Source: Sulfurospirillum barnesii SES-3 (GTDB lineage Bacteria; Campylobacterota; Campylobacteria; Campylobacterales; Sulfurospirillaceae). Taken from it: a DNA stretch of 64,000 bases. The stretch is taken from NCBI RefSeq assembly GCF_000265295.1, contig NC_018002.1:1178001-1242000 (forward strand), written 5' to 3'. Below, piece after piece: positions 13,375-56,583 of the stretch. The notes under the pieces are model-generated. The model did not search any database, had not been told where the DNA came from, and saw only the letters and a list, made by a program, of their open reading frames with translations. A program made the translations under genes and the position numbers. Every line of letters starts with the position of its first letter. The first letter of the stretch is position 1.

Positions 13375-13379
13375 CTCTT

Positions 13380-32736: not shown

Positions 32737-32791
32737 ACTAGAATAGTTAAAAGACCTATACTACAGTATTCTAAGAATACATATTGTCCAT

Positions 32792-32811
32792 CAGTACCGT
32801 AATCAGTACCG
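32792..32811. promoter_or_regulatory. Possible integrase arm sites, left end
   Basis: Two direct copies of CAGTACCG (32792-32799, 32804-32811), 12 bases apart. The same core recurs near the integrase end (48585-48592, GAGTACCG at 48598-48605, inverted at 48548-48557). Repeated short sites at both ends of an element fit arm-type integrase or excisionase binding. Confidence 0.45.
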
Positions 32812-32819
32812 CTAAAAGC

Positions 32820-33220
32820 TAAAGTAAACACCCTAATTAGTGTATCATAATCATTTAATTATACTAAAACAAGAATTAATTGTTGCCATTATTTTTAACA
32901 TATTTATATGATAAAAATAATATAAATTTAAATAATTAGTATATATTATTAAAACTTTATTTTTTACATATATATGTAAAAAATTTCTGCCTTATAACTT
33001 AAGAAAAAATGCTCATCAACATCGAATATATCGAATATATTGACTTATATTTGTAAATCAAAAAAATTGATAATAAAAAGATAGCATAATTTTTTAGAAC
33101 ATCGATACAATGGGCATTTAACAACATGTTGTATCTAATTATTTTTGCCTATACTGAATGTTATAATTATGCCAGATATATCAATTTACTTATATAAACT
33201 TGAATAGACAAAAAGGAACA
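32820..33220. promoter_or_regulatory. AT-rich control region before the AlpA-like gene
   Basis: About 400 bases without a gene. It contains two tandem ATCGAATAT copies (33021-33029, 33030-33038), a 12-base palindrome ACAACATGTTGT (33122-33133) and a TATAAT box (33163-33168) 50-60 bases before the alpA-like start, with no good -35. Such repeats suit operator or excisionase sites. Confidence 0.45.
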
Positions 33221-33445
33221 ATGATGGACACAACAAATAGACTTATTAAATTGGACGAGGTAAGGCAATTGGTACCTTTAAGCCGAGCAAAAATTTATAA
33301 AATGATTAAAGATGAACAATTTCCTCGACAACTAAAAGAAGGTGGAAGTAGTCTCTGGAGTTTAGAAGATGTACTTAATTACATTAAAAAACTAGGAGAG
33401 AAGGGCAAAAAAAATGATGCTAAGAATTTAGAAATCAATAAATAA
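33221..33445 (+). CDS. AlpA/MerR-type excisionase or regulator
   Basis: 74 residues with an N-terminal winged helix-turn-helix: LIKLDEVRQLVPLSRAKIYKMIKDEQFPRQLKEGG, as in AlpA proteins that control prophage-like integrases. The end is Lys-rich. ATG at 33221 has AAAAGGAA directly upstream; the ATG at 33224 is also possible. First gene of the left half of the element; it likely regulates excision with the integrase at the other end. Confidence 0.82.
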   Translation: MMDTTNRLIKLDEVRQLVPLSRAKIYKMIKDEQFPRQLKEGGSSLWSLEDVLNYIKKLGEKGKKNDAKNLEINK

Positions 33446-33447
33446 AA

Positions 33448-33485
33448 CTCCCTTCGTTGAAAGTTGGTCGCTGGCAACGAGGGAG
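33448..33485. repeat. Hairpin between the AlpA-like and RepO-like genes
   Basis: CTCCCTTCGTTG (33448-33459) pairs with CAACGAGGGAG (33475-33485) with a single bulge, across a 15-base loop. No T-run follows, so it may be an attenuator or replication/processing structure rather than a simple terminator. Confidence 0.5.
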
Positions 33486-33580
33486 CAATTAAAGTCCTAG
33501 AAAGAGTCTTTAATCAATCTGCATTATACACTAGTGCTCTTGATTATTCAACCTTTTTTATTAATATAAAAGGCTTGGGC

Positions 33581-34063
33581 ATGGAAACATTTATACCAAA
33601 TTCCTTTCAAGTTCCCAATGCTTTAGTAGATCTTTTTCTACTAAAGCTGACAGAATTTGAACTTAAAATATATCTTATAATTATTAGGAAAACAAAAGGA
33701 TGGAACAAAGATTTTGATGCAATTTCAATTTCACAATTTATCAAGATCTTGGAAGTAAAAGATCAACGTACCGTTAAAAAAGCGATAAAGGGTTTAGCAG
33801 AAAAAAACCTAATTATTCGTCTTGAACAAATTGGAAAAGAAAGCAAATTTGCAATAAATCTCAACCCCCTACATGCAAATGAGGGGAGTCATCCAAATGC
33901 ACCTACATCACGATGTACCCCACAAAGTACCATTAATGAAAAGCAAGTTTGTAAAAGAAAAAAAGAACCAAAAATTCTAAATGTACAAAAAACTCCTAAT
34001 ACACTCATAGTTACTTATCCTCGTTTTCCTACGACTGTTAGACCTGCTAGGAGTTCACAATGA
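33581..34063 (+). CDS. RepO-like replication protein (phage O N-terminal type)
   Basis: 160 residues from ATG at 33581, with AAAAGG before it. The start FIPNSFQVPNALVDLFLLKLTEFELKIYLIIIRKTKGWNKD resembles the winged-helix N-terminal domain of phage replication protein O, which binds the origin. The C-terminal 60 residues are basic and low in structure. Upstream codons are open but lack a ribosome site. It overlaps the next gene by 4 bases and may initiate replication of the excised element. Confidence 0.7.
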   Translation: METFIPNSFQVPNALVDLFLLKLTEFELKIYLIIIRKTKGWNKDFDAISISQFIKILEVKDQRTVKKAIKGLAEKNLIIRLEQIGKESKFAINLNPLHANEGSHPNAPTSRCTPQSTINEKQVCKRKKEPKILNVQKTPNTLIVTYPRFPTTVRPARSSQ

Positions 34064-34242
34064 GCAATGAACTCTTCAAAACCTGCAACCGCCGTGAACA
34101 ACAAAAAATACAAGCAATCTTTTTTCTTTTACAAACTAAAAAGCTCAAAAATATTGAGAAAATCTTTGAAATTGTAAAAAATTTAATAAAAAAAGAGCGA
34201 AAAGATGCAAAGTGTAGAGCAAAAGAGAGGTTAGGAAAATGA
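34060..34242 (+). CDS. Small basic protein of unknown function
   Basis: 60 residues, strongly basic helix (IEKIFEIVKNLIKKERKDAKCRAKER). Overlaps the RepO-like stop and the next start by 4 bases each (ATGA), which argues for a real, translationally coupled gene. No family recognised. Confidence 0.6.
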   Translation: MSNELFKTCNRREQQKIQAIFFLLQTKKLKNIEKIFEIVKNLIKKERKDAKCRAKERLGK

Positions 34243-34985
34243 TTGCAACTAGCCTAGCGCAATTTAACCGTTACCCATTTTTTCTCTTTCTAACCTATGC
34301 CAAAGAGGCACGGTTGGATTTAGAAAAAAATGAGATACATACGGTAATCGAAGAGGAAGAGTTTAACGAAACCACGAAGCAGATGGAGACGTTTACGATT
34401 AATCGTATGTCACGCATTGAACCTGTACCTGTTTGGCAAGTCGTTTTAATGAAGTATATGCCAATTATTTTTTTACTCTATTGGAGTAATTTTCCAAATT
34501 CTAAAAACGAGTTTATTGTTGCACTTATATCTTTAGTCTATTTTAGTGCATTTGTGAGCCTTTTTAACTACAATCGCACCATTGCCAAGTATATTGGCAT
34601 TCTCTCAATCGTTTTGCTCTATTTTGTGCGTTTTAAGCTCGATGTGAGTGCTATACACATAAATTGGTTTATTGGTTACATGATGAGCTATACCATGATG
34701 TTCTACATCATCTTTGATATGTACAAAAAACGATATCTAAACTACTACAACCTTTTAGACCTTGGTGGTCAAAAGCGTATTCAGATCGCTACACGCCAAA
34801 AACGCCCACTTATCATGGTACCTTTTATGCGTAAAATGACAGGTGGAAAGAAAACAGGTGTTTTGCATGTAAACCAAGGCTTTAACCTTGGGTTCAATGT
34901 TTTTCTTAAAGGCTATTTTGTACGTATTACAAAAGAGATCAATGAAGAGAGCAAGGTGGGTTCATATGAAAACAGCACACTTTAA
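34239..34985 (+). CDS. Inner-membrane protein of unknown function in the element
   Basis: 248 residues with about four membrane segments in the middle (roughly 75-175: VVLMKYMPIIFLLYW, FIVALISLVYFSAFVSLF, IGILSIVLLYFVRF, MMSYTMMFYIIF), and a basic, soluble C-terminal tail. It overlaps the next gene by 20 bases and is likely co-translated with it. No family is recognised; a role in a membrane complex with the large downstream protein is inferred only from coupling. Confidence 0.65.
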   Translation: MIATSLAQFNRYPFFLFLTYAKEARLDLEKNEIHTVIEEEEFNETTKQMETFTINRMSRIEPVPVWQVVLMKYMPIIFLLYWSNFPNSKNEFIVALISLVYFSAFVSLFNYNRTIAKYIGILSIVLLYFVRFKLDVSAIHINWFIGYMMSYTMMFYIIFDMYKKRYLNYYNLLDLGGQKRIQIATRQKRPLIMVPFMRKMTGGKKTGVLHVNQGFNLGFNVFLKGYFVRITKEINEESKVGSYENSTL

Positions 34986-37581
34986 AAAGATTCTTTTAGC
35001 CTTGGCTTTATGTACTTCTTTCCTTTATGCGGAAGAAGTATCAACACCAACGGCTAGCGCAAACACCGTACTTGAAAACAACACGTATATCCAAGAGATG
35101 CCAAGTCAAAGTTCATGCACTTTTGCATGTCCTACGATGAAAGAGGGCTATTTTGCTCGTATTCGTGATGTAATCCCAAGCAGAGGTGAGACACAATGTT
35201 TCGTATACAAAGCAACGGATCCAAGCACTATCTTAGGGTATGTATCTGTACCTAATGAACAATGCAAAACACAATTTAATCTTACCGATAGTGAGAAGTT
35301 TCAAGTTAATAGACAGACACCTGAAATTAATGAATTTGGATTAGAGTCTCTTGAAAAAAAATATGCTGAACATTTTACCAATGTTGGAAGTGGTAGGGAG
35401 TATTTAAGAACCTCTAAATATGTGATTGCAGGTCTTACCGCAGATAGCGAAATTCTTGATATCCCAAACACCTTATTAAAAAATGAACTTGTGCTTAATA
35501 GTGGATACACCATCTACCCCAATGCAAATGCTTTGCCTGATGTAGGTACCGCACAAAAGATTCTTGATACCCTTGGTGGGTGGGTGTCAGGCGTAGTATC
35601 GTTTGTGTCGGGTGAAGAAATTGTAAAAGAAAAATACAAAGGCTATACGGCTGAACTTTCAAGCCTGAACGAAGTTGTTTTCTCAAATGTAATCGTTTTA
35701 ATATTAAATTGGCTCAAAGAATCCAATGAAGTCTTACTTGATATGAACTCAACGCTCTTTTTCTTTGTAGTACCATTTACAGCAGGCTTTTTTCTACTTG
35801 GAAAAGCCACGAAAGCCCTTGGAGATAAGCAAGATCACGAAGATAACTTTGAGAGAGTTTTTTTAACGTTCATTATTCTCTTTGTTTTCTATTTTTCATC
35901 AAGTGAAGTTAATGTACAAGATGAAAAAAAGATTACACAAACTAATTTTCAAACATGGTCACGCCCCATACTTTATGAGGGTGTAGAAATGGCTGATAAA
36001 CTCACTTTTGCTTTTACCAAGGCATACGTTGGCTATAAGGCAAAAGATGCGGGCTTGATTATTCAAGATGAGTACGGCAAAATTCATGATCAAACCAAAA
36101 TGCTAATTAAAGAAAATGAGGTCTTGGAAAAAGAGGGTGGCATGATTGGTACGTGTTATCAAGTGTATGACACCGATAGGCTCTATGCGCTTGCATCCGA
36201 AGCCGTTGGAGCTAATACGGTGTTCCCACCTTTGGGTTCACTTAATAAAGATAGAAGAGGCAAACCAAATTCCAAAGGTATTGATCAAAACTTTGGAATC
36301 TCTAATTTAGAAGAAACGTCATTTATGCACCCACAATATCGAAGAGCCACGCATGTACCAACACTTAGTGCATGTTACAACTTTGAACGCAGATACAAAG
36401 AAAATAAAAAGGTCATTGAAGCCAATCAAATCATCATGAAGCAATATGAGAGTGCTATCAACTCAAACAAAACCAAAGAGGGCATTAAGCTTGTTGCGGA
36501 GCTTCTATATAAAAATACAGCTGAAATGGGTTTTATCAATGCTTCTAGCATTGCATCAACGAATATTCTTATCAATAACCTTGATCTCTTTGTAAATGCA
36601 GATATTAAAGAGGCAAGCGTTGAGAAAGCGATGGAGCTTGACAATCAAATTAGCGACAGGTATGAAAAAAGTAATATTGTAAGTGGTGGACATATTTTTG
36701 CAGGGATGCGTTGGATAGCCATGAATAGTGCCTATATGATGGTACCGCCCGCATCAAGCATTAAGACGGAGATCGTGGAACCGTCTCTTGAGAGTATGCT
36801 TTACTTGGGGGATAAATTTTTCCATTTTTCAAAACAAATTGGTTCTTATATTTCAGGCGTAGGGACAATGGGAGTTTCATTCATTGCCGAAGAAGCATTG
36901 AAAAAGTTAGAAACACCTACCAAAAATTTAGAAGATAACCAATTTTTTAAAGCTCTTATATCGTTTATTGCACTGATAATAACCATTTTAATAATGCAAT
37001 ATTTATTAGCCTATATGCCACTTGTTGCAATTAGCGTAGCGGGATATTTGGCTATTGGTTTTTATTACGTTACGGTTGAAATCTTCTATCTCGTTTCACC
37101 ATTTGTAGCAATCTATGCGTTAAGTAACGATCAGATGCAAGTGCTTAAAAGCTTTTTTTCACGCTTTTTAGCCTTGGCATTTAAACCTGTTCTGATTGTA
37201 GTAAGTATTATCATGGCAATTATGGCAAATGAACTATTTGATAAATTGGCAATGCTTAGTTCGCATAAAACTTTTGATACATTCTTTGCTATTACCCAAT
37301 ATGACCGAACAGCTATTGACACCAATGCTAACTTTTTAACAAACATTCAGCAGTTAGGATCTTATGCCATTGATTTTAGTGATTACGGATTACTCTTTTT
37401 TAAAGGCACTTTATTGGTTGGTGCAAAAGTAGTTTCACTATTAGCAGTCTTCTATTTAGTCTTTTATGGTTCAACAATGGTGTTAAATATCTTCGGCATG
37501 AAAGATAGTGGTATTGATGCACAAGATACAGTTGGTAATTCTATTGAAAGTAAGTCAAGTAAATACAGTACATCTATGTAA
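34966..37581 (+). CDS. Large polytopic membrane protein, DotA/TraY- or TrbL-like
   Basis: 871 residues from ATG at 34966, with AAGG upstream and an N-terminal signal peptide (MKTAHFKKILLALALCTSF, Ala-Glu-Glu after). A Cys-bearing periplasmic part is followed by membrane segments near 240-310, a long middle periplasmic region with more Cys, and a cluster of membrane segments near 655-765 and 815-840. This layout is like DotA/TraY or TrbL/VirB6 conjugation channel proteins. No motor ATPase accompanies it. The coding region precedes a good ribosome site for the next gene. Confidence 0.6.
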   Translation: MKTAHFKKILLALALCTSFLYAEEVSTPTASANTVLENNTYIQEMPSQSSCTFACPTMKEGYFARIRDVIPSRGETQCFVYKATDPSTILGYVSVPNEQCKTQFNLTDSEKFQVNRQTPEINEFGLESLEKKYAEHFTNVGSGREYLRTSKYVIAGLTADSEILDIPNTLLKNELVLNSGYTIYPNANALPDVGTAQKILDTLGGWVSGVVSFVSGEEIVKEKYKGYTAELSSLNEVVFSNVIVLILNWLKESNEVLLDMNSTLFFFVVPFTAGFFLLGKATKALGDKQDHEDNFERVFLTFIILFVFYFSSSEVNVQDEKKITQTNFQTWSRPILYEGVEMADKLTFAFTKAYVGYKAKDAGLIIQDEYGKIHDQTKMLIKENEVLEKEGGMIGTCYQVYDTDRLYALASEAVGANTVFPPLGSLNKDRRGKPNSKGIDQNFGISNLEETSFMHPQYRRATHVPTLSACYNFERRYKENKKVIEANQIIMKQYESAINSNKTKEGIKLVAELLYKNTAEMGFINASSIASTNILINNLDLFVNADIKEASVEKAMELDNQISDRYEKSNIVSGGHIFAGMRWIAMNSAYMMVPPASSIKTEIVEPSLESMLYLGDKFFHFSKQIGSYISGVGTMGVSFIAEEALKKLETPTKNLEDNQFFKALISFIALIITILIMQYLLAYMPLVAISVAGYLAIGFYYVTVEIFYLVSPFVAIYALSNDQMQVLKSFFSRFLALAFKPVLIVVSIIMAIMANELFDKLAMLSSHKTFDTFFAITQYDRTAIDTNANFLTNIQQLGSYAIDFSDYGLLFFKGTLLVGAKVVSLLAVFYLVFYGSTMVLNIFGMKDSGIDAQDTVGNSIESKSSKYSTSM

Positions 37582-37593
37582 AAGGAGTAAAAA

Positions 37594-38010
37594 ATGACCA
37601 GTGAATTATTAAACAAACACGCAGAGTTTTTAAAAACTCTGCAACACGTTGAAATATTAGATACAGATGAAAGACGTATGACTATCGCACTTAATGTCAG
37701 AGGTGGCGAATACGTTGCAAGAGTGAAAAATAACGACCTACAAAACGTTATCATTGTGCTTGGATGGATTGAAAATTTTAACTTAGAAGAAGTCGATTAT
37801 GGCTATTTTAGAAAGCTATTAACTTGTGTTGGAAACGTAGATACACTTTTCTATCAGTCGCTTTTTTTAGGTGCAGATAATCTATCAAAAAGAGCTTTAG
37901 ATATCTTCGTACAAGCAAGCGAATACACCCTAACTTATAAGATCATCAATACAGAGCTTTTTCAAAGCTTGAAAGTGGAATTAGATGTTATTAACGCAAG
38001 AACAAATTAA
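37594..38010 (+). CDS. Unknown protein, 138 residues
   Basis: 138 residues, soluble, acidic-neutral, no motif recognised. AAAAGGAG precedes the ATG. A 22-base perfect palindrome lies at 37621-37642, codons 10-17, giving an RNA hairpin near the start. It overlaps the following Toprim gene by 26 bases. Confidence 0.6.
   Translation: MTSELLNKHAEFLKTLQHVEILDTDERRMTIALNVRGGEYVARVKNNDLQNVIIVLGWIENFNLEEVDYGYFRKLLTCVGNVDTLFYQSLFLGADNLSKRALDIFVQASEYTLTYKIINTELFQSLKVELDVINARTN
37621..37642. repeat. Perfect 22-base palindrome inside a gene start
   Basis: Arms of 11 bases (GCAGAGTTTTT and its complement) meet with no loop, 27 bases after the ATG at 37594. No T-run follows, so it is not a standard terminator. 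Confidence 0.6.
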
Positions 38011-38974
38011 AGCAATCTATGATGAAGCAAAGGGTCAGCTACATAAAGCTGACCCTTTGCCTATTCTGCAAGCTTTAAACCTTAATGTTATTCAAGTTAA
38101 TCCAGCAAGCTATAAGTTAACTTTGAGAAACGAAAATCATGCTTCAGCATTTATAAGCTTTAAAAACAATCGATGGATTTTCAAGGATTTCGGGAGTGGA
38201 GAAAATGGCACAATCGAAAATATTGTTATGCTTGTTAATCGTATAAATTATAAAGATGCTTTAACTTATTGCTTATCAACTTTAAATCAACATGAACCGA
38301 TTATACAAAATTCTTCAACTTATCCCAACTTATTACAAGCTACATACGTCTATAAGTCCAAGGTTATTCGAGTTAGTGAACCACTTGCTCCATCTATTTT
38401 AACGTATTTAAAATCGCGCAATATTATCAAAGTCCCACCCGAATTTAAAGCAATTGAAGGAGTTTACTACAATAAAAATAACGAGCCAAAAAAAGTGTTT
38501 GGTGTGGGTATTTTAAATGATTCAGAAGGCGGGGATATTCACTTTCTCAAACAAGTTGGAAGTCTCAAAACGATGAATTTAGGTGCAAAAGATATCTCAT
38601 TTTTTAAAAGAGAGAACACCTCTAAGATAGCGATTTTTGAAAGTAAAATGGACTATGCAGCAGCGTATCAAAGCCTTGATTTTATAGACGTTAACGTACT
38701 TGTTGCGAACTCAACTTCTAACATTCATAAGGTTCTCAAGTTACTTCAAGAATCTTCTTATAATATAATTACTATTTTTCAGCAAAACGATCCCCAAGGG
38801 CGTAATTTTGCACATGAAATCGTTAAGCAAGCGAATATTAAAAGCTTTATGTATGTTCAATACAATGACGATGAAGAAGGTTTGGATGTTAATGATTTAT
38901 TAATAAAAAGTACAAACATCCAAGAACGAGTTACTTCTCATGTTTATAGAAGAAAATCTCAACACAAGAAGTAA
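37985..38974 (+). CDS. Toprim-domain primase-like protein
   Basis: 329 residues. The N-terminal 100 look like a degenerate primase/DUF3991-type domain (FISFKNNRWIFKDFGSGENGTIENIV) with no zinc-binding cysteines. A Toprim core follows: IAIFESKMDYAAAYQ near 217-231 supplies the Glu, and FQQNDPQGRNFAHEI near 262-276 stands where DxDxAG would be. The second acidic pair is weak (NDPQG), so catalytic activity is uncertain. Probably part of the element's replication. A 14-base-pair hairpin sits 42 bases after the start. Confidence 0.7.
   Translation: MLLTQEQIKAIYDEAKGQLHKADPLPILQALNLNVIQVNPASYKLTLRNENHASAFISFKNNRWIFKDFGSGENGTIENIVMLVNRINYKDALTYCLSTLNQHEPIIQNSSTYPNLLQATYVYKSKVIRVSEPLAPSILTYLKSRNIIKVPPEFKAIEGVYYNKNNEPKKVFGVGILNDSEGGDIHFLKQVGSLKTMNLGAKDISFFKRENTSKIAIFESKMDYAAAYQSLDFIDVNVLVANSTSNIHKVLKLLQESSYNIITIFQQNDPQGRNFAHEIVKQANIKSFMYVQYNDDEEGLDVNDLLIKSTNIQERVTSHVYRRKSQHKK
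38027..38060. repeat. Perfect 14-bp inverted repeat inside the Toprim gene start
   Basis: GCAAAGGGTCAGCT (38027-38040) and its exact complement (38047-38060) around a 6-base loop, codons 15-25 of the Toprim gene. GC-rich for this element and not followed by T residues. Confidence 0.65.
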
Positions 38975-38991
38975 AAAACAGTGTACGTATT

Positions 38992-39009
38992 TATGATAGA
39001 ATTATCATA
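38992..39009. promoter_or_regulatory. Palindrome before the AbiTii gene
   Basis: TATGATA (38992-38998) and TATCATA (39003-39009) flank GAAT, 20 bases before the ATG and followed by AGC and seven T's. It could be a weak terminator for the Toprim gene or an operator for the AbiTii gene. Confidence 0.4.
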
Positions 39010-39028
39010 GCTTTTTTTAGGAGACGGG

Positions 39029-39925
39029 ATGAAACTTATTGATGAAATAATAGAAATTTTAAGTGCTGAAAATTCAAATCTAGAAAATGCTCTAATAAAA
39101 ACGAAGGTGTTACTTCATAAAATGGGAGAAAAGTCATTACTAACATGGGTTAATAATGAAATAAATGGCTATTCGCATGATGATATTGTCCCAGAATATA
39201 GAATTATTTTGACAAGTATCTATGGCACAGCAACTAATGGATATACGACTCGTTGGAATAATTATAGGTTACCGACAAATCATTTAAATAAAAAAATGCA
39301 AGAACAACTCTCGACTCAAGAAATGCGTGAGAGTATATCTGCATTAGATCTTCTAAGTAAATCTGAGAGTACTCTTCAAGCTCCTTTACCTACAGAATGG
39401 TGCTCATTATTTTCAAAGGGGCTTGCGCAAGGAATATATGTTGAATCATCATACAAACAGATTTCTCAATCACAAATCCTTCAAATACTAACTCAAATTC
39501 GTAGTCGACTATTAGATTTTTTGCTTGAATTAGCTGATAAGTTTGATAATTTTTCAGAAAATGGTGATATAAAAGCTGAATCAAAAAAAATTAAAACGCA
39601 AGAGCTATTCAATAATACAGTTTTTGGAAATAATACAACAATTATTATTGGAGATAAAAATTCAAATATTTCTCCTCAGATTATTAGTGGTAATATAGAT
39701 GAACTTTGTAAAGTATTAGTCAATCTCGGTATCACTAATGATGAAATTGATGAATTAAAAGTTTCAATAGATAAAGATCAAGACAGTACTACTAGCTCAA
39801 TAATAGAATATGGACAGAATGTCAAAAATTGGCTTAAAAAGATATCTGCTAAAGCTATCGAAAACAATTCTATAAAATATATTGGGGAAGCTTTAGATAG
39901 TTTTTATGGTTTCATTACAAACTGA
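39029..39925 (+). CDS. AbiTii-domain protein, possible phage defence
   Basis: 298 residues. The N-terminal 170 match the AbiTii domain pattern: LIKTKVLLHKMGEKSLLTWVNNEINGYS followed by an acidic VPEYRI stretch. This domain is found in abortive-infection loci; mechanism is not established. The centre has a polar beta-type stretch (NTVFGNNTTIIIGDKNSN). TTTAGGAGACGG before the ATG is a good ribosome site, and a palindrome lies just upstream, so the gene may have its own promoter. It ends 37 bases before the IS256-type element. Confidence 0.72.
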   Translation: MKLIDEIIEILSAENSNLENALIKTKVLLHKMGEKSLLTWVNNEINGYSHDDIVPEYRIILTSIYGTATNGYTTRWNNYRLPTNHLNKKMQEQLSTQEMRESISALDLLSKSESTLQAPLPTEWCSLFSKGLAQGIYVESSYKQISQSQILQILTQIRSRLLDFLLELADKFDNFSENGDIKAESKKIKTQELFNNTVFGNNTTIIIGDKNSNISPQIISGNIDELCKVLVNLGITNDEIDELKVSIDKDQDSTTSSIIEYGQNVKNWLKKISAKAIENNSIKYIGEALDSFYGFITN

Positions 39926-39961
39926 TACTAGTTTAAAACATTGTATCAAAATTCTTTTATC

Positions 39962-40057: not shown

Positions 40058-40058
40058 A

Positions 40059-41261
40059 TCATAAATTTAAAGCCTTGTTGAGTCTGCCCTCAAAATAAAT
40101 TGAGAGTTGTGAGAGGGTTAGACTCCAATTTCGTATAGGCATTGTCCATTTTTTTTCTGCATTTTTGATTCCCATAAACAATAATTTGAGTAAGCTATCA
40201 TCATTTGGAAAAGCCCCTTTAGTCTTTGTGAGGGTTCTAAATTGGCGATGAACGGATTCAATAATATTGGTGGTATAAATAACACGTCTAATATCTTCTG
40301 GATACTGAAAGTACACTGAGAGATTCTCCCATTTGTTACGCCAAGATTGAAAAACAATAGGGTATTTTTTACCCCATTTTTCTTCCAGTTTATCCAGTTC
40401 ATTTTCAGCTTCTTCTTTGGAAAATGCTTGATAGACTGCTTTAAGTTCACTAGCAAATTGCTTTTGATTGATTGAGCCTATAAACCTGAGGGAATTGCGT
40501 ATTTGATGGACGATACACAGCTGAACTTCTGTATTGGGAAATACTGAAGTGATGGCTTCAGGAAATCCTTTAAGTCCATCGACTGAGGCAATCAATATAT
40601 CTTTCACTCCACGGTTTTGCAGATCTGTGAGCACTTGTAACCAGAACTTTGCTCCTTCACTTTCACCTAAATAAAGACCGAGTATCTCTTTTTTACCATC
40701 GGTTCTAACACCTAGTACGGTATAAAAGGCTTTAGAGATATAACGTCCTTCATCTTTGACTTTATAGTGAATGGCATCTAAAAATATAAAGGGATAGAGC
40801 TCTTCCAAGGGACGAACTCGCCATTCTTGTAGCATGGGTAGGATTTTATCGGTTACTGCACTTATCGTGGCTTTAGAGAAGCCCACTCCATAAATCTCTT
40901 CTATATGATCTGCTATTTGGCTATAACTGTTGCCAAGGGCATAGAGTGAGAGTATCTTTTGTTCTATTTGATCTGACATATGGGTCTGATTTTTCTTTAC
41001 AATTTGAGGCTCGAATGTGCCTGCTCTATCTCGTGGGACATCCAGTTCAAAACTGCCTACTTCACTCTTCATTGTTTTAGAGCTACTGCCATTTTTACGG
41101 TTTTTTACTAAATCCTGTGTGAGATGGGATTCTATCTCTGCTTGAAGCGCTGCTTCTGTCAGTTGTTTAATCAATGGAGCCAGTGCTCCATCTTTCCCAC
41201 CAAGGGCTTTACCCTCACGAATCTGTTGTAATATTGCCTCTGTGTCTATCTGAAATTCCAT
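40059..41261 (-). CDS. IS256-family transposase
   Basis: 400 residues, full length. DDE catalytic residues are visible: FLDAIHYKVKD near 162-172, SVDGLKGFPEAI near 228-239, and TNIIESVHRQFR near 345-356, with CIVHQIRNSLRF between. No frameshift or stop, so it is likely active. Alternate frames of this region are not separate genes. Confidence 0.95.
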   Translation of the reverse strand: MEFQIDTEAILQQIREGKALGGKDGALAPLIKQLTEAALQAEIESHLTQDLVKNRKNGSSSKTMKSEVGSFELDVPRDRAGTFEPQIVKKNQTHMSDQIEQKILSLYALGNSYSQIADHIEEIYGVGFSKATISAVTDKILPMLQEWRVRPLEELYPFIFLDAIHYKVKDEGRYISKAFYTVLGVRTDGKKEILGLYLGESEGAKFWLQVLTDLQNRGVKDILIASVDGLKGFPEAITSVFPNTEVQLCIVHQIRNSLRFIGSINQKQFASELKAVYQAFSKEEAENELDKLEEKWGKKYPIVFQSWRNKWENLSVYFQYPEDIRRVIYTTNIIESVHRQFRTLTKTKGAFPNDDSLLKLLFMGIKNAEKKWTMPIRNWSLTLSQLSIYFEGRLNKALNL

Positions 41262-41323
41262 CGTTCAATCCTTGTGTCTTTGAAATACTACCTGATTGAC
41301 ACAGAATTTCTAACGCTCCCCTT

Positions 41324-41878: not shown

Positions 41879-41888
41879 TTAAACCCCA

Positions 41889-42452
41889 TTAACAAAAATT
41901 ATTCATAATGTGCGTATTACCACGATACGATGATAGAAGCTTATTAACTTTAGATTGTTCTTGAATGTTGTTCTGTATATTTGAAGCCAATTTTATTGCT
42001 TTTCGATGATGCAATATGTCCTTTATCACAAAGAAGAAGATAAATAAAAATGCAGTAAGAAAGAATAACCCCGCATTGTTTTTTGCTGATCTTGGTGCAA
42101 ACATAACAGTAATCGCAATAAGAAATTGCAAGGGAATTAGCGGTAAAAATCCTTGAAAAATCAATAACAGATCACTTCTTTTAAAACGAATATTCTTCGA
42201 TAAATTCAATAGGGAAACAACTCCATATACATTGTCATATTTTGTCTTTTTACAGATCAAAATAACTTTATCACCAATCTTAAAATATGGAAGTTTTTTA
42301 GGAAGAATATATACGTTATTGTTTGCCATAATGCTTTTTTTGAAAGATTCTGAAACATTGATTGCAAGGTTATTACTTCCCTTAACCATATAAGAATCTT
42401 CTTGAAAATCTTCAACCGTAATACAGTGTACAATATAGGGGTTTTTAAACAT
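41889..42452 (-). CDS. Two-segment membrane protein of unknown function
   Basis: 187 residues: a soluble N-terminal region (1-95), two membrane segments near 98-117 and 127-145, and a cytoplasmic basic tail. GAGGAATAT precedes the ATG. Lies between the nuclease-like gene and the relaxase gene on the same strand. No family recognised. Confidence 0.6.
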   Translation of the reverse strand: MFKNPYIVHCITVEDFQEDSYMVKGSNNLAINVSESFKKSIMANNNVYILPKKLPYFKIGDKVILICKKTKYDNVYGVVSLLNLSKNIRFKRSDLLLIFQGFLPLIPLQFLIAITVMFAPRSAKNNAGLFFLTAFLFIFFFVIKDILHHRKAIKLASNIQNNIQEQSKVNKLLSSYRGNTHIMNNFC

Positions 42453-42493
42453 ATATATTCCTCACTTTTTTATTATCTGTAGCGTACAAAAAA

Positions 42494-43975
42494 TTAACTT
42501 TGTCGTTGTTTATTATGACTTTTTCCTTTATAAACATTACCCTTCTCAGCATAATATTCATCAGCCATATCCTGTACGCTTGCATCCTTCATTTTATAAA
42601 TGACACTTTTCGCTTGATCATCGGAAAAGGTATAAACACCTTTGTTACATGTAAGCAACCCTTTTTCCTCTAAGGCTTCAAAATCAGCCTTGGCATTATC
42701 AATAATTTGGATTGCTTCGGGAGTATCAGCCTTAATTTTTGAGAAGTCCATTTTACCGTCTAAAACAAGGCGCAATCTACTTGATGATGCACTTCCATCA
42801 GGAGCATTATCAAGAGCTTTTTGTACCTCTTTTTTATCTAAAGGCTTGGTATATTCAGCACGTTTAATATTTTTGGGTTTGCCTGCTTCAAGACGATCAT
42901 TCTCTTTTGATTGTTCTTGCGCTCTTTGAGCTTCTTTCAAAAGCTCACGTGAAATTTTTAACTCCTCTTGGAGCTTCACATTTTCATCTTCTTTTGCTTT
43001 ATTAAGAGCTTTCATATTTTCAAGTTGAGTTTTAAGATTTTCATTGGATTTTTCTAAGAGTTCATTTCTGCTAACTTGTGTTTTTAATAGCTCTTCTTTG
43101 CTTTTTACCGTTGCTTCCAATAACTGTTTTTGAGCTTTGTATCGTCCGATCAACGACTCAAATTTAACGTTCTCATTTTCAAGTGTTTTAACGTTCTCTT
43201 TGTAACTATCAACAGATGTCAATGGAATATCAAAATTATCTTTAAGTTGAATTATTGGATTTTCTTTTTTGTATTGCATTAATGGTATATATTTTTTACT
43301 ATTTGGAGTAATTTTTTCGATTGGCAACCCGCTAAACTTTTCACGAATGGCATCATTGAATTCTTGTTGAAATGCACCATAAGTTTTATTCTTCATCATT
43401 CGTGAGAACGTAGTATTATCGGGGACATCAAATATCGTATGAATGTGGATAGATGCTTGATCTGTATGTCCTGCAACGCCAATAGTATCAATATCAAGTT
43501 CAGGAAAGCTACTTTGCAATATTTTTAGAGCAATATCTTTCATTTTTATCAAGATATCTTCATCGTAATTAAGTGCATCTACGGGTGGAAACTTTGTAAT
43601 AGACCAAGAAGCTTCAACCAAGGAAGCTTCACGCCCTCTTCGAGCACGCTTGAAATTTTGTAGCTCCTTTTCTAAAAGCTCTACTTTGTTCTTGTTACGC
43701 TCCGCTGTTTTTAAATCACCTTTCTCTAAAGCCACTTGATATCGTTTTCGATAAACTGATAAATTTTTTGTAATTTTACTTGTACCTTGTTTTTTTAAAT
43801 CAATGTTGGCTGATTTTTCATAAGGCTGTAAAATGATTGCCCCAGACTCATGATCTGTTTTTTCAATTTCTTGACTGACACGTTTTTTATTTAAATTATG
43901 ATTTCTAAAAACATGTGCTACTTTTGCCCCCGCTTGAAGAGAATTAACTGGATTAAAGTTAATTGATGTATTCAT
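42494..43975 (-). CDS. MOBV (Pre/Mob)-type relaxase
   Basis: 493 residues. The histidine motif HTDQASIHIH near 170-180 matches the HxDExxPHxH relaxase motif of MOBV, and an N-terminal part with ARRGREASLVEASWSITK is of the same type; a long coiled coil follows (about 255-370). Relaxases nick oriT and stay on the 5' end. The element has no coupling protein, so it must use another system. GGAG precedes the ATG. Its LTCNKG region carries the only TTACATGTAA in the element. A likely oriT lies just upstream. Confidence 0.85.
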   Translation of the reverse strand: MNTSINFNPVNSLQAGAKVAHVFRNHNLNKKRVSQEIEKTDHESGAIILQPYEKSANIDLKKQGTSKITKNLSVYRKRYQVALEKGDLKTAERNKNKVELLEKELQNFKRARRGREASLVEASWSITKFPPVDALNYDEDILIKMKDIALKILQSSFPELDIDTIGVAGHTDQASIHIHTIFDVPDNTTFSRMMKNKTYGAFQQEFNDAIREKFSGLPIEKITPNSKKYIPLMQYKKENPIIQLKDNFDIPLTSVDSYKENVKTLENENVKFESLIGRYKAQKQLLEATVKSKEELLKTQVSRNELLEKSNENLKTQLENMKALNKAKEDENVKLQEELKISRELLKEAQRAQEQSKENDRLEAGKPKNIKRAEYTKPLDKKEVQKALDNAPDGSASSSRLRLVLDGKMDFSKIKADTPEAIQIIDNAKADFEALEEKGLLTCNKGVYTFSDDQAKSVIYKMKDASVQDMADEYYAEKGNVYKGKSHNKQRQS

Positions 43976-43990
43976 AGCATTACTCCATTT

Positions 43991-44104
43991 AGATACACAC
44001 GAAGGGTGTGTCTATGCTCTTTTCTCTTTTGCTCTTACACGCAATATGACAACACCCAACGAATTAACTTAGTTAATATAGTGATGTAGTCATATTATAG
44101 CGTG
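43991..44104. other. Candidate origin of transfer (oriT)
   Basis: Just upstream of the relaxase gene. ACACAC (43995-44000) and GTGTGT (44006-44011) form a hairpin that ends in GTGTG-T, the kind of nick site known from MOBV plasmids. Downstream CACGCAATATGAC (44038-44050) pairs with GTCATATT...GCGTG (44089-44104), enclosing ATTAAC-TTA-GTTAAT (44063-44077). Nested repeats next to a relaxase gene are typical of oriT. Confidence 0.65.
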
Positions 44105-44466
44105 AAATATAACTTTAGTTATTATAGCATCTTTGCTTAAAACTCGTAGGGTTTTTGGCATTCTTTTTTATTTTTTTATATACCCACACTTCAAATTGCA
44201 AGCTATTTTTTAATGTGCACCTGTGTGTTTATAAATGAAAAATTGATGTGTATGTATTAAAGAAGAGTTTGTTCGAGTGTTACTTACCTAAGTAAATTGT
44301 ACTCGAACTGTTTTGAAGTGCGGTGTAGAATAGTCTGCGTGTATCTATCGCTATTGGGATGTGATTTAGATAAAACAATGTTTTCGCAGAACAGTGTTTT
44401 ACTATAGCAGAATCACTTTCCTCCCAATATTGTAAATAAGCAAAGCTTAAACCTCATTAACAAATT
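44105..44466. other. 362-base gap with a strong hairpin
   Basis: No convincing coding region. A hairpin at 44271-44308 has outer arms GTTCGAGT/ACTCGAAC and inner arms TTACTTA/TAAGTAA. The rest is AT-rich with no further structure I can see. It may hold a small RNA, origin or promoter for the relaxase gene. Confidence 0.5.
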
Positions 44467-45156
44467 TTAACCAACGTATTTTTGAGTAAAGACTCTTTTC
44501 GATGGATATTCCAATGCGCTTAATGCGCCACCATAAACACATCCTGTAACAATACCACAGAAATGATTCGTTATCCAAGGCTCGTTAAAATGCTCATGTC
44601 CAAACACGTTAAATATAGGGTAATGCAGATAATTTTTTTCATAAGGGTAAAGAGGTTTTTGCACGCCGTATAGAATTGATTTTGAGATACGGTTATTACG
44701 CAAATACATAGGATTTTTTGATTGATAAAACGGTAATCCAAATCCATGTGTCACAAAAAGAGTTTTATTGTTTTCATCTTTGATGTTATATTCTAAATAA
44801 TCAGGTAAGCTTTTCATCCATGTTAAATGCTCTTGCAAATCAACGTTGGATAAGTTGATGTAACTTAACTTAGTTTGGTCTCCACCGTTACCGTAACTTA
44901 ACCAATCACACATATTCTTTGTTTCATAAGCTTCGACCATTACGGCTTCATGGTTGCCTTTAATACAATCGTATCCACCGTTTTTAACATACTCAACAAC
45001 ACGAGCAGAATCCTTGCCACGATCAATTAAATCACCTACAAAAATAAGATGTGATTTTTCTTTGTTAGGTAGTTGTTCGATCAGTTGCATTAGGGTAGTG
45101 TAACATCCGTGAACATCACCGATGATATAGACTTGTTTATGTTCAAACATCTTCAT
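44467..45156 (-). CDS. Calcineurin-like metallophosphatase (PrpA/ApaH-type)
   Basis: 229 residues. The metal-binding motifs are in order: GDVHGC near 13-18, GDLIDRGKDS near 41-50, GNHE near 70-73, and two later histidines (THG near 138, FGHEHFN near 190), as in the bacterial Ser/Thr phosphatase 1 or Ap4A-hydrolase family. The substrate is unknown. Carried by the element, it may alter host signalling or act in defence. Its start (ATG 45156) has AAGAAGCGA upstream. Confidence 0.85.
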   Translation of the reverse strand: MKMFEHKQVYIIGDVHGCYTTLMQLIEQLPNKEKSHLIFVGDLIDRGKDSARVVEYVKNGGYDCIKGNHEAVMVEAYETKNMCDWLSYGNGGDQTKLSYINLSNVDLQEHLTWMKSLPDYLEYNIKDENNKTLFVTHGFGLPFYQSKNPMYLRNNRISKSILYGVQKPLYPYEKNYLHYPIFNVFGHEHFNEPWITNHFCGIVTGCVYGGALSALEYPSKRVFTQKYVG

Positions 45157-45262
45157 TCGCTTCTTTTATACTTCCACGCTTGGAGTGTTAGTATATAGAT
45201 ACACAATAACTTTGACATTTGCGCTTGTGTCATTTATCACTCCTTTTGCATATGCACTTTAT

Positions 45263-45775
45263 TTAGATTTTGATGTTTAATTTTGCTTTGATCTCTTCAG
45301 CTTTTTTTGCCACTTGTTCTTTTAACTCTTCTTCTTTTTGGGCTTCTTCTTTGATTTTATTCATTTTATAAGTATCTACTAACTCTTCTAATATTTTATC
45401 CTTTGCCAATTCTTCAATAGTTTTTGGTCTCCAAAAAAATAGTTTCCATAATGTCCAAGGCTTTTTGATATGTGAAATATTTAACATATCAAGCGTATAT
45501 TTAGATGAAAAATCTTCAAAAAAAATATCAAAATTTCTTCTTTCTGCTTTGGTTGGCTTAAACCATAACTTACTAATGTAAAGTCCCACAAACACTGAAG
45601 CAAAAAATGAATATCGAAACACATAGAAAGCTACCCAAGATAAAAACACCATAAGTAAAATTGCAAAAATATTACTTTTATAACTTACTACAATCATGTG
45701 TGTTAAATTTGGAGTAAATTTTAAAAAAGGAATGCAAAAAAGCAATATCGAAATTACGAGTAATGCTTTCCACAC
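45263..45775 (-). CDS. Membrane protein with charged C-terminal coiled coil
   Basis: 170 residues from GTG at 45775, with membrane segments near 1-22 and 33-68, and a Lys/Glu coiled coil at the end (about 120-168). Its first 98 bases overlap the gene upstream in another frame, more than expected for normal coupling. Either a later start is used or the two were once one gene. No family recognised. Confidence 0.55.
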   Translation of the reverse strand: MWKALLVISILLFCIPFLKFTPNLTHMIVVSYKSNIFAILLMVFLSWVAFYVFRYSFFASVFVGLYISKLWFKPTKAERRNFDIFFEDFSSKYTLDMLNISHIKKPWTLWKLFFWRPKTIEELAKDKILEELVDTYKMNKIKEEAQKEEELKEQVAKKAEEIKAKLNIKI

Positions 45776-45998
45776 AATTTTTCCATAAGGTTATTCTATT
45801 CCTTATAAGGAAAAAAGCGATAAGAACTGTTAATATCCATAAATAATCATCCCCTCTTGCTTTTTGATATAAATGAGTTACAAGCCAATAAATAAATTGG
45901 CAAGGTAATATTATAACCATTGCGCCACCAAGCACACCAACCCACCAAATTGATAATGCCGTGATTATATTCGTTAATATTGATACATGTTTACCCAT
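45678..45998 (-). CDS. Small two-segment membrane protein
   Basis: 106 residues with membrane segments at about 12-42 and 53-66. A strong TAAGGAG precedes the ATG at 45998, so the start is real. Its C-terminal 30 residues overlap the next reading frame; the segment after residue 70 has no clear character. It may be broken by a frameshift. No family recognised. Confidence 0.5.
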   Translation of the reverse strand: MGKHVSILTNIITALSIWWVGVLGGAMVIILPCQFIYWLVTHLYQKARGDDYLWILTVLIAFFLIRNRITLWKNCVESITRNFDIAFLHSFFKIYSKFNTHDCSKL

Positions 45999-46014
45999 TT
46001 TTGACTCCTTAGTT

Positions 46015-46353
46015 TTAAGCCTGCTGATCTCTAAGGCTTTTTAAATCCTCTTTAATGCGTTCCTTGATTAACTTCATACCCTCTTCATGGGTTACTTCGC
46101 CTTTGGCTAATTTCACCAACATTTCAATATCAAAACGATCACAATAAAGATGCTCTATTGCTTGCCCTCGTATGGTACTTTCAATAGAAGCATATTTATC
46201 GTGAGGCAATGTATCTTTATACTCTTTGAGTATTGCCAAACTTTCACTCAAGCTTTTAGGCTGATACGGCATTTTATAGCTTTGTTGCATATATTCATCA
46301 AGAGCGTGATTGTATTCGTAGTCCGTTTCTGTTCTGCTGTCATTTTCGTACAT
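46015..46353 (-). CDS. Small protein, weakly VbhA antitoxin-like
   Basis: 112 residues. The C-terminal stretch DIEMLVKLAKGEVTHEEGMKLIKERI resembles the GE-x-EE turn in VbhA-type antitoxins of Fic toxins, but no Fic gene is near. AAAGGAG before the ATG is strong. Next to an unrecognised 157-residue gene with 11 bases between them, so the two may act as a pair. Confidence 0.5.
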   Translation of the reverse strand: MYENDSRTETDYEYNHALDEYMQQSYKMPYQPKSLSESLAILKEYKDTLPHDKYASIESTIRGQAIEHLYCDRFDIEMLVKLAKGEVTHEEGMKLIKERIKEDLKSLRDQQA

Positions 46354-46364
46354 GTGAGGCTCCT

Positions 46365-46838
46365 TTATTTATCAAATCCACATAAGACGTGCATGATCGT
46401 TCCTTGCACTCCATGTGCATTGTATGTTTTATTTATAAGAAATACTTTTGCATCATAAAAACTCATCGGTGTTTCAAGTACATAAGGAACATCAAAAAAA
46501 CCAAACGCCGTTAAAACTCTCACCATTGCTTTTTCAAATAGTATAGTCTCATGTTGCATTCTAATCGATTCAACTTCTTCCTTTTCTGCACACTGTATTT
46601 GCTTTTCATCAAATTCATCAGTTTCAAGTTCAAATTCATATATGCTATTTAACGTAAACACTGTTAAACATTTAGTGAATTTATCCCATGTAAAGCGTTC
46701 AATCTTGCTTGTTCTAAAACATTCCACATCATTTAAATACCACCATATCATTTTTCCAAAAGTAATGTCCGCATAAACATCTTTTGGCATACTGCAATCC
46801 ATACCTTTGTTTGTTGATGAAAGAAACTTAGCTCTCAT
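46365..46838 (-). CDS. Unknown protein, 157 residues
   Basis: 157 residues, soluble, acidic centre, no motif recognised. AAAGGGG precedes the ATG. Located upstream of the VbhA-like gene and probably co-transcribed with it. Confidence 0.55.
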   Translation of the reverse strand: MRAKFLSSTNKGMDCSMPKDVYADITFGKMIWWYLNDVECFRTSKIERFTWDKFTKCLTVFTLNSIYEFELETDEFDEKQIQCAEKEEVESIRMQHETILFEKAMVRVLTAFGFFDVPYVLETPMSFYDAKVFLINKTYNAHGVQGTIMHVLCGFDK

Positions 46839-46963
46839 ATTTTAACCCCTTTGCTAACTATAAACACAATGTATTTTTATTTTTTATATGAAAAAGTATA
46901 ACACAGTCTCTTTTAATTTAGTATTATATATAATATTATCAATAAGCATTATAAGGAGTTAAA

Positions 46964-47272
46964 ATGTACGATGATAACGAATCAGACTTGCATAAAATCT
47001 CTTCCAATATTCATTCTCTCTCAAAGACATTACATGAAGTAAAAACGCTTATCAAGGATAAAGAAGAGAAGCTTAAAGTCATTTCTAAGCGAGATAAAAA
47101 GAGACGAGAGAGCCTTAAAATTGCTCAAATGAAGTTTGTTAATGTATCAACCAATATTAAAGCCGAAGAGTATACGAAGTTAGAAAGCAGGCTCAAAGAG
47201 CTTAAGATGAGTAAGTCGGCTTATTTGAAGATGTTGATTGAAAGTGACTTGAATATCGCCAACAAAGTATAA
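46964..47272 (+). CDS. Coiled-coil protein with ribbon-helix-helix-like end (MobC/CopG type)
   Basis: 102 residues. Charged coiled coil (about 10-55), then a stretch like the RHH fold of CopG/MobC: NVSTNIKAEEYTKLESRLKELKMSKSAYLKMLIESDL. TAAGGAG stands before the ATG. In mobilisable elements such proteins help the relaxase at oriT or repress transcription. Its strand is opposite to its neighbours. Confidence 0.65.
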   Translation: MYDDNESDLHKISSNIHSLSKTLHEVKTLIKDKEEKLKVISKRDKKRRESLKIAQMKFVNVSTNIKAEEYTKLESRLKELKMSKSAYLKMLIESDLNIANKV

Positions 47273-47327
47273 AAATAGCTATTTTAAATAAAATATTATG
47301 TATTAATATATGTAAAATATATTATTT

Positions 47328-48542
47328 TTAATTTTTCAACCAATCAGCCCACCATTGAATAAGTTTTTTCTTTTCATCAAAATATTTCATAACATCAGTT
47401 CTATCGTAAGCTGCTCGAACTTTGTTTTTCTCTGCATGAGCTAAACAAGCTTCAATGACATCAGGATCAAAACTATGTTTTGTTTTATAGCGATTTGCTG
47501 TTGTTGAAAACATTGACCTAAAGCCATGAGATGTCATAGTGTTTTTATAACCGAGCTTCATTAAGGCATGATTTAACGTATTTTCACTTATTGGTTTTAA
47601 ATTACTTGTAGGGCTTGGAAATACAAATTTACTTTGCCCAAAAGAGTAGGGCTTTATTTTATTGATAATTTCTAATGCTTGGTTTGAAAGAGGAAGAATA
47701 AAAGATTGATTCATTTTCATTTTTTCTGCATCAATTTCAATATACGATTCTTTAAAATTTACTTCTGACCATTCTAAATTTCTAAGGTTAAAAGGGCGTA
47801 GAAAAACAAAAGGGGCAAGTCTTAAAGCATATATAGTTGATATATCAGCATTATAAGCCTCTCCATAACTATAAATATCTTTTATAAGCTCTTTGATTTC
47901 ATCTTCTTTTGTCAGAGCTGGTACATGTACAACTTCTTTTCTTTTTAAAGCACTTCGCTTATCTATATCTGCAATAATATTATGTTCTACAAAACCATAA
48001 GTAACAGCATATTTGTAAATGCGTTCAATATTATTAAGAACACGAGATGTTAACTCATAAATATCTTGCTTTTGCATATGATCAATTATTTTTAAAATAT
48101 CAAGACGTGTAATATCTTGGATATTCATGTGCCCAATAAAAGGATAAGCATGCTGTTCTAATCTTACTTTAGATTTTTGATGAGTGATAGGTTTCCATTC
48201 AGTGTGCATTTTATTGAGCCAATTTTCTGCAATAGCTTTGAATGTAGAAGAGAGAGTAGGGATGTTATTATTTTTATACTCTATAGGATCAATACTATCA
48301 AGAAGAAGTTTTTTTGTTTCATCTCTTTTTATACGTGCTTCTTTGAGTGAAATTTCAGGATATATTCCAAATGACATGGATTTACGTTTATTTTGAAAGG
48401 TATAGTCATATCTAAAGAATTTTGTACCATTATCTTTCACAACAAGATAAAGCCCTTGACCATCACTTAGCTTGTAAGTTTTGTCTTTAATTCTAGATTT
48501 TTTAATCTCTGTATCGCTCAGTGGCATCGTGTTTCGTGACAT
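47328..48542 (-). CDS. Tyrosine recombinase integrase (P4-like, DUF4102 N-terminus)
   Basis: 404 residues. N-terminal DUF4102-type arm-binding domain (SRIKDKTYKLSDGQGLYLVVKDNGTKFFRYDY), core-binding middle, and the catalytic residues Arg near 242 (LRPFNLRNLEW), HGFR near 337-340, His near 366 (LAHAEKN) and Tyr near 377 (RAAYDRT). P4-type integrases of this kind use tRNA 3' ends, and this gene faces the tRNA-Leu 180 bases away. Complete and probably functional. Confidence 0.95.
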   Translation of the reverse strand: MSRNTMPLSDTEIKKSRIKDKTYKLSDGQGLYLVVKDNGTKFFRYDYTFQNKRKSMSFGIYPEISLKEARIKRDETKKLLLDSIDPIEYKNNNIPTLSSTFKAIAENWLNKMHTEWKPITHQKSKVRLEQHAYPFIGHMNIQDITRLDILKIIDHMQKQDIYELTSRVLNNIERIYKYAVTYGFVEHNIIADIDKRSALKRKEVVHVPALTKEDEIKELIKDIYSYGEAYNADISTIYALRLAPFVFLRPFNLRNLEWSEVNFKESYIEIDAEKMKMNQSFILPLSNQALEIINKIKPYSFGQSKFVFPSPTSNLKPISENTLNHALMKLGYKNTMTSHGFRSMFSTTANRYKTKHSFDPDVIEACLAHAEKNKVRAAYDRTDVMKYFDEKKKLIQWWADWLKN

Positions 48543-48547
48543 TTTTA

Positions 48548-48605
48548 ACGGTACTCACTTTCATTAGAATTGGATAAATGGGTTCAGTACCGTATAGAGT
48601 ACCGT
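48548..48605. promoter_or_regulatory. Possible integrase arm sites, right end
   Basis: Inverted AACGGTACTC (48548-48557) and direct CAGTACCG (48585-48592) and GAGTACCG (48598-48605) upstream of the integrase gene, matching the pair at 32792-32811. They may also regulate the integrase promoter. Confidence 0.45.
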
Positions 48606-48718
48606 AAAAAACTTTAGATTTGTATAAACAAGTGTGGACGGGATAAGACAAGTAAGAGGCTAAAAGCTCTATTTTTAGGGGGTTTAGATACTGTATGAGA
48701 CAAGGAAAGAAAAAAAGA

Positions 48719-48803
48719 TGGTACCTGAGGCCGGACTCGAACCGGCACATATCTCTATACTAGATTTTGAGTCTAGCGCGTCTACCAATTTCACCACTCA
48801 GGC
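48719..48803 (-). tRNA. tRNA-Leu(CAA)
   Basis: 85 bases with acceptor stem GCCTGAG/CTCAGGT, T-loop TTCGAGT, a long variable arm as in Leu tRNAs, and anticodon CAA in the loop between CTAGA and TCTAG stems; it decodes UUG. CCA is encoded. Its 3' end is the integration site of the 16-kb element, and the intact 3' copy belongs to the element side. Confidence 0.96.
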
Positions 48804-56561: not shown

Positions 56562-56583
56562 ACTTTTACATGTAAGGATTCTT

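Follow-up and report, generated by a model that had tools for sequence, protein, structure and literature searches.

DNA uptake sequences (DUS) of Neisseria are often paired behind genes, and the uptake signal sequences (USS) of the Pasteurellaceae show an intergenic excess. DUS are found in the core genome only and are absent from newly acquired genes (PMC2397512), and their dialects share a core (PMC3630211). In A. pleuropneumoniae, 438 exact USS and 947 copies with one mismatch were counted (PMC1939737). The highly iterated palindrome 1 (HIP1) of cyanobacteria is located mostly within genes, over which its distribution is apparently random (PMC3025956), and it is tied to orphan methyltransferases (PMC4390886). 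It is scarce in islands and highly conserved genes (PMC3025956, PMC4390886), and in Synechococcus elongatus, where it is absent from islands, it served as an island marker (PMC3025956). A different kind of recognition operates in Campylobacter jejuni, which imports solely DNA methylated at RAATTY (PMC10046745). Here, we describe a 10-bp palindrome, TTACATGTAA, of Sulfurospirillum barnesii SES-3 and its near absence from a 16-kb integrated element. The window, i.e., the whole 64-kb stretch analyzed, comprises positions 1178001-1242000 of the complete 2,510,109-bp genome, and the element occupies 32737-48738 of it. An exact-string literature search found no bacterial report of TTACATGTAA, and in the literature covered by it the mark appears to be undescribed.

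Among the 10-bp palindromes of the 64-kb window, TTACATGTAA ranks first in over-representation. A recount gave 23 exact copies, one inside the element and 22 in the surrounding 48 kb, in agreement with the original prediction. They are the following:

42645..42654, no strand, TTACATGTAA, exact match, sole exact copy within the element
81..90, no strand, TTACATGTAA, exact match
3988..3997, no strand, TTACATGTAA, exact match
5987..5996, no strand, TTACATGTAA, exact match
6264..6273, no strand, TTACATGTAA, exact match
8028..8037, no strand, TTACATGTAA, exact match
13351..13360, no strand, TTACATGTAA, exact match, left half is a hairpin arm behind a stop codon
17205..17214, no strand, TTACATGTAA, exact match
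23095..23104, no strand, TTACATGTAA, exact match
25673..25682, no strand, TTACATGTAA, exact match
27089..27098, no strand, TTACATGTAA, exact match
29026..29035, no strand, TTACATGTAA, exact match
29957..29966, no strand, TTACATGTAA, exact match
30909..30918, no strand, TTACATGTAA, exact match
32628..32637, no strand, TTACATGTAA, exact match, ~100 bp beyond the left end of the element
51728..51737, no strand, TTACATGTAA, exact match
54198..54207, no strand, TTACATGTAA, exact match
54441..54450, no strand, TTACATGTAA, exact match
56566..56575, no strand, TTACATGTAA, exact match
57061..57070, no strand, TTACATGTAA, exact match
58051..58060, no strand, TTACATGTAA, exact match
59519..59528, no strand, TTACATGTAA, exact match
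63513..63522, no strand, TTACATGTAA, exact match

The copy at 42645 lies within the relaxase open reading frame (42494-43975, minus strand), where it had been placed before. The earlier expectation of about seven copies in the element also holds: if its 16,002 bp were as dense in the motif as the flanks, they would contain 7.3 copies, and the genome density gives 7.84 (Poisson P(<=1) = 0.0035). The gene density of the element was ruled out as the cause of the shortage, since the expectation climbs to 10.2 (P = 0.0004) when coding and intergenic DNA are given separate rates. Genome-wide, 1.7% of the 16-kb intervals hold <=1 copy, and nearly all of them belong to one of three regions: 704-723 kb, 2271-2320 kb, and this element. 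The poorest intervals lie at 704-735 kb, at 2276-2318 kb, and again in the element. The composition of the element itself predicts 0.05 copies, and the one observed is above that value.

The abundance of TTACATGTAA in the genome is far from what its composition would produce. There are 1,230 exact copies in the genome and six of the reversed-letter control, as would be expected of the over-represented 9-12-mer of a DUS or USS system and of a HIP1-type palindrome, which recurs in hundreds or thousands of copies. An order-3 background predicts 2-4 copies, and the excess over it, ~600-fold, excludes chance or composition as the source. The site is also stringent. One-mismatch forms altered at any of the four inner positions are close to the background level (101 versus ~76 expected), and enrichment was confined to forms changed at the outer base, which tolerates C or G (179 versus 8 expected); the graded one-mismatch excess of DUS and USS was not found. 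Furthermore, TTACATGTAA is a perfect dyad with symmetrical flanks (preferred context, CTTTACATGTAAAG), and it has none of the asymmetry of DUS and USS. Because both the asymmetry and the graded one-mismatch enrichment are lacking, TTACATGTAA is not classed with DUS/USS, and it is filed as a member of neither that group nor HIP1.

Conservation of the sites was assessed against the relative G015, using 340 kb of that genome in which the DNA is ~80% identical. Identity was found at 127 of 141 aligned sites and at ~17% of the 10-mers located 20-40 bp away. In genes, the numbers were 86 of 94 sites versus 14% of the neighboring 10-mers, and between genes, 41 of 47 versus 24%. The copies within genes read chiefly as Leu-His-Val (LHV) or x-Thr-Cys-Lys/Asn. 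There are 679 LHV tripeptides versus 199 expected, and 89.5% of them are spelled TTACATGTA, while codon usage predicts 3.5%. Therefore, the DNA motif has changed protein sequences. The conservation of the sites relative to their neighbors, together with the altered proteins, is a strong argument against a neutral origin. The genome is AT-rich, and context-dependent mutation could in principle make the motif; nonetheless, a functionless product of mutation or composition bias has next to no chance of being the explanation, given the excess over the order-3 background, a site conservation of ~90% versus ~17% in the neighbors, the changes in proteins, and the losses at the species level described below.

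The location of the motif is far from uniform. About 35% of the copies are intergenic, in 7-8% of the DNA, with the highest densities in convergent gaps (5.5 per kb) and directly behind stop codons. An inverted partner of at least 9 nt within 50 nt was found for 111 of 416 intergenic motifs (27%) versus 57 of 811 coding ones (7%), and pairs of TTACATGTAA occur 20-22 bp apart. All these characteristics would suit a transcription terminator or another RNA-level element. However, such a primary role is very improbable because about two thirds of the copies (811 of 1,230) are within genes, where termination would be harmful, and the core is equally conserved there. The inverted partners of the intergenic motifs suggest instead a secondary use in terminators, as is the case with paired DUS. 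An instance in the window is the hairpin located behind a gene at 13343-13380 (AGCCTTACAT-GTAAAAAG-ATGTAAGGCT), in which half of the motif is one arm.

Outside islands, the copies are spread more evenly than at random (variance/mean, 0.66; P = 5e-4), with a mean spacing of ~2 kb and a density that is unchanged from origin to terminus. Neighboring motifs showed no clear signal of helical phasing (P = 0.3 at 10.5 bp; the best of seven periods tried was 11.5 bp, P = 0.007). The even spacing, the strong conservation, and the palindromic, protein-type site are compatible with sites that must be evenly spaced because a protein of the nucleoid or of chromosome segregation binds to them. We consider this role quite improbable, since the density does not change toward the terminus, a palindrome has no orientation, and the placement at small scale is heavily biased to gene ends instead of even. 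In addition, the motif is family-specific, and it has dialects and complete losses in viable relatives.

Depletion was also observed in other mobile DNA. The region 2276469-2318809 of the genome is a 42-kb defense-type island, which encodes several ATPases and a type I restriction system along with two tyrosine integrases and holds one TTACATGTAA versus 20.8 expected (P = 2e-8). No copies were present in six Mutator-family insertion sequences (IS) or in an integrase-bearing element of 10.2 kb in G015. Intervals of foreign composition, determined with the motif masked, carry fewer copies (rho -0.23), and the most atypical 2% have 0.85 per 8 kb versus 4.2. The DNA not shared with G015 has 0.30 copies per kb versus 0.52 in shared DNA (P = 0.008); the corresponding values in G015 are 0.18 and 0.49 (P = 0.0008). 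The motif is thus scarce in recent DNA and frequent in the core, like DUS and USS, with exceptions both ways. The species-specific 12-kb block 568078-580017, which includes citrate lyase and TctA genes, has seven copies, a normal density; rather than having been acquired, it may be ancient DNA that G015 has lost. The block at 704-735 kb contains polyketide-synthase genes and three copies, and no integrase was seen in it. Plainly resident operons, those of ATP synthase, SecY/ribosomal proteins, and a respiratory antiporter, are deserts of 10-14 kb. An integrase gene at 1913405 was considered as a candidate island of normal density and dropped, since the 6 kb around the integrase itself are free of the motif; the gene may be a remnant.

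Plasmids behave differently with respect to the exact site and its core, TACATGTA. Two S. diekertiae plasmids have four exact TTACATGTAA each, versus ~17 expected at the density of the host (P about 2e-4), and 14 and 13 TACATGTA cores versus ~0.5 by chance (~0.35 per kb, ~30-fold above chance). On these plasmids, L223 (NZ_CP059996.1) and L224 (NZ_CP045454.1), nine of 14 cores are bunched in two places. The clusters of L223 (1692-2732 and 20494-21355) consist of four cores within the gene of the adenine methyltransferase and five that lie inside or close to the gene of a LexA-family regulator, which adjoins a DNA polymerase IV gene. An operator role is possible there.

The original prediction had proposed that the motif marks resident DNA and that acquired DNA lacks it, and had named islands of normal density as the observation that would speak against this. 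The first proposal is sustained by the depletion of the 42-kb island, the six IS, and the G015 element, and by the poverty of foreign-composition intervals. The second, as a strict rule, was overturned by the citrate block, the deserts in core operons, and the plasmids with their cores, and unshared DNA is reduced in motif and not free of it. The observation named beforehand as adverse was thus made in part, and TTACATGTAA density indicates residence well but not infallibly. It had also been argued that absence from the element is what a self-recognition signal such as an uptake sequence would show. This does not follow. Absence from islands is common to DUS (PMC2397512) and to HIP1 in Synechococcus elongatus (PMC3025956), and therefore it cannot favor uptake over another chromosome-wide role; as proof of an uptake signal, it was rejected.

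All 24 genus members examined possess TTACATGTAA, in numbers from 49 to 1,496. Sister genera of the family keep the TACATGTA core and differ in the outer bases. Two members of genus g4, for example, have 379 and 491 TACATGTA but ~15 TTACATGTAA, the outer base being C. The motif has been lost in the complete family genomes G009 and G026, which would make suitable natural controls. These outer-base variants and losses resemble, by analogy, those of DUS. Beyond the family, counts are at background level, except in family f17, where a few members exceed it and two have 340-367 copies. A second occurrence outside the Sulfurospirillaceae was noticed in L150 and L145 (Campylobacterales bacterium and Sulfuricurvum sp.), which are enriched in TTACATGTAA (7 in 14.7 kb and 2 in 4.5 kb) despite a G+C content of 0.51-0.52; they were placed outside the family because the FtsK identity is 58%.

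A D12-class adenine methyltransferase is encoded at 2225018-2225992 of the genome, with no restriction partner beside the gene. Genus members rich in the motif have the enzyme, and G009, G011, G020, G010, and G017 do not; the members that lack it have lower counts (49-934; Mann-Whitney P = 0.002, uncorrected for kinship). In family f17, the enzyme goes with the motif, 4/6 versus 1/19 (Fisher P = 0.005, 10-mer >=31, likewise uncorrected), and a homologue exists on both core-rich S. diekertiae plasmids. The distant homologues found on Psychrobacter and Bartonella plasmids and on two viral contigs were not accompanied by TACATGTA enrichment or by a convincing avoidance of ACATGT, and a search by sequence found no relatives of the enzyme in PDB. 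The enzyme loosely tracks the motif, a lead and not a demonstration.

This lead, the palindromy, and the stringency of the core fit a HIP1-like methylated palindrome, in which an orphan methyltransferase would serve a chromosome-wide role in repair, recombination, or replication control and not in uptake. Sites would arise in place by mutation and be kept by selection, and new DNA would lack them because too little time has passed. Resident DNA is marked by HIP1 as well (PMC3025956), and orphan methyltransferases have been linked to it (PMC4390886). This interpretation is possible, although unlikely. The association with the enzyme has exceptions in both directions, and TTACATGTAA is unrelated in sequence to GCGATCGC, the HIP1 site. 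We know of no 3'-end bias of HIP1. The strong bias of TTACATGTAA toward 3'-ends and convergent gaps does not resemble the distribution reported for HIP1 (PMC3025956).

The element was examined for signs of its origin. Its boundaries had been drawn earlier from the sequence, and a 14-bp attachment repeat at 32723 and 48725 confirms them. Its features are:

32737..48738, no strand, mobilizable integrated element, motif-poor, one attachment repeat included (attachment repeats, integrase, relaxase, Rep, empty site in L125)
32723..32736, no strand, left attachment repeat CTGAGGCCGGACTC, 14 bp (repeat match)
48725..48738, no strand, right attachment repeat CTGAGGCCGGACTC, inside tRNA-Leu (repeat match)
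48719..48803, minus strand, tRNA-Leu(caa), the integration site
47328..48542, minus strand, P4-type tyrosine integrase (PF13356, PF22022, PF00589)
42494..43975, minus strand, MobA/VirD2-like relaxase (PF03432, E 8e-4, below the Pfam curated cut-off)
33464..34063, plus strand, replication initiator, phage Rep O/Rep3-like (PF04492, E 2e-9)
34888..37581, plus strand, large conjugation-type membrane protein (21-22% identity to weak relatives on plasmids of Helicobacter and Campylobacter)
37985..38974, plus strand, Toprim-domain protein, primase-like (PF13155)
39029..39925, plus strand, AbiTii-domain protein, probable abortive-infection defense gene carried as cargo (PF18864, E 7e-38)
40059..41261, minus strand, Mutator-family transposase, one of ~nine copies or relatives in the genome (PF00872)

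Attachment repeats at a tRNA gene, an integrase, a relaxase (with a match below the Pfam curated cut-off), and an empty site in a relative are what defines a mobilizable integrated element. The locus resembles known elements of this type with P4-type integrases in its tRNA-Leu target, adjoining integrase, relaxase, Rep, and defense cargo. It differs in the relaxase, which has no relatives among PLSDB plasmids and is absent from the 43 other family genomes, bar one 29% fragment; a single protein of the element, the one matching at 21-22%, has relatives on plasmids. Sulfurospirillum sp. SCADC (L125) has no insertion at the integration site. Since this site is empty there and the relaxase is confined to one of 44 family genomes apart from that fragment, a recent insertion is most likely. 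Elsewhere in the genome, an array resembling clustered regularly interspaced short palindromic repeats (934455-937145; L047) has 42 repeats containing CTCGAACCGACACAAG, with a spacing of 64-67 bp.

Very probably, the motif is missing from the element because the element arrived recently. It would have come into tRNA-Leu(caa) from a motif-free source. In the resident DNA of Sulfurospirillum, TTACATGTAA would accumulate slowly and then be maintained, a process that would leave recent mobile DNA nearly free of it. Such a depletion is expected for any genomic mark that accumulates slowly. As for the role of the mark, with confidence somewhat short of even, we propose a stringent, DUS-like mark of self DNA, for which we infer uptake, methylation, and a reader. 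This two-fold symmetric, stringent reader would recognize the mark, most likely during natural transformation, and motif-bearing DNA would be preferentially taken up or recombined; as a consequence, motif alleles would spread and mutated sites would be restored, as with Neisseria DUS. The location at gene ends, the dialects, the site conservation, and the bias to the core genome fit such a drive without proving uptake. Competence machinery is present, as judged by ComEC, encoded in all well-assembled relatives searched, and by prepilin-like proteins of this genome, two of them in a cluster upstream of comEC.

Several observations weigh against this proposal. Searches found no transformation data for Sulfurospirillum, and the analysis identified no receptor for the motif. 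No DUS or USS known to us is palindromic, and the one-mismatch profile is closer to that of HIP1 than to that of USS. G009 has kept comEC, has lost the motif, and has no close D12 homologue. With regard to methylation, a D12 methyltransferase is missing altogether from G017, G010, G027, and G172, which keep 340-934 copies, and G026, which lost the motif, G040, G062, and G066 have the enzyme and few or no exact 10-mers (TACATGTA was not counted in all of them).

The mark may be a methylated palindrome, analogous to methylated RAATTY, an idea suggested by the perfect symmetry of the site and by an abundance that loosely follows the orphan D12 enzyme. Methylation-gated import in Campylobacter jejuni, a member of the same order, makes this version plausible. 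Its full form, a palindromic uptake signal of the Sulfurospirillaceae written by the D12 enzyme and read by the competence pilus, is speculative and decidedly unlikely. If true, a single mechanism would unite palindromes of the HIP1 type with uptake signals of the DUS type, and its dialects would isolate sister genera from one another. In any case, the mark has enough force to alter proteins (LHV and TCK peptides); ~90% of its sites persist between species, and some species have lost it. The question raised by HIP1, whether selection, drive, or methylation is responsible, becomes testable in a lineage whose Campylobacter relatives choose DNA by methylation. In practice, motif density gives a fair, if imperfect, indication of recent acquisition in Sulfurospirillum.

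Each of the known systems shares part of these properties. Neisseria DUS are 10-mers, strongly conserved, present about once per 1-2 kb, and divided into dialects, as is TTACATGTAA; they are not palindromic, and their ComP receptor and uptake effect were proven by experiment, whereas the motif described here comes from sequence analysis. Pasteurellaceae USS have in common with TTACATGTAA the over-representation, the intergenic excess, and the competence pilus machinery, but they are asymmetric with many one-mismatch copies, while here there are 1,211 exact copies (in part of the genome) versus ~280 with one mismatch. Cyanobacterial HIP1 is likewise a perfect palindrome, over-represented by orders of magnitude and scarce in islands and highly conserved genes, and it is linked to orphan methyltransferases, as TTACATGTAA may be; it differs in sequence, belongs to another lineage, and is located mostly in genes. 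Finally, in the CtsM/methylated RAATTY system of Campylobacter jejuni, within the same bacterial order, adenine methylation marks self DNA for uptake; RAATTY, unlike TTACATGTAA, is a common hexamer that does not need to accumulate.

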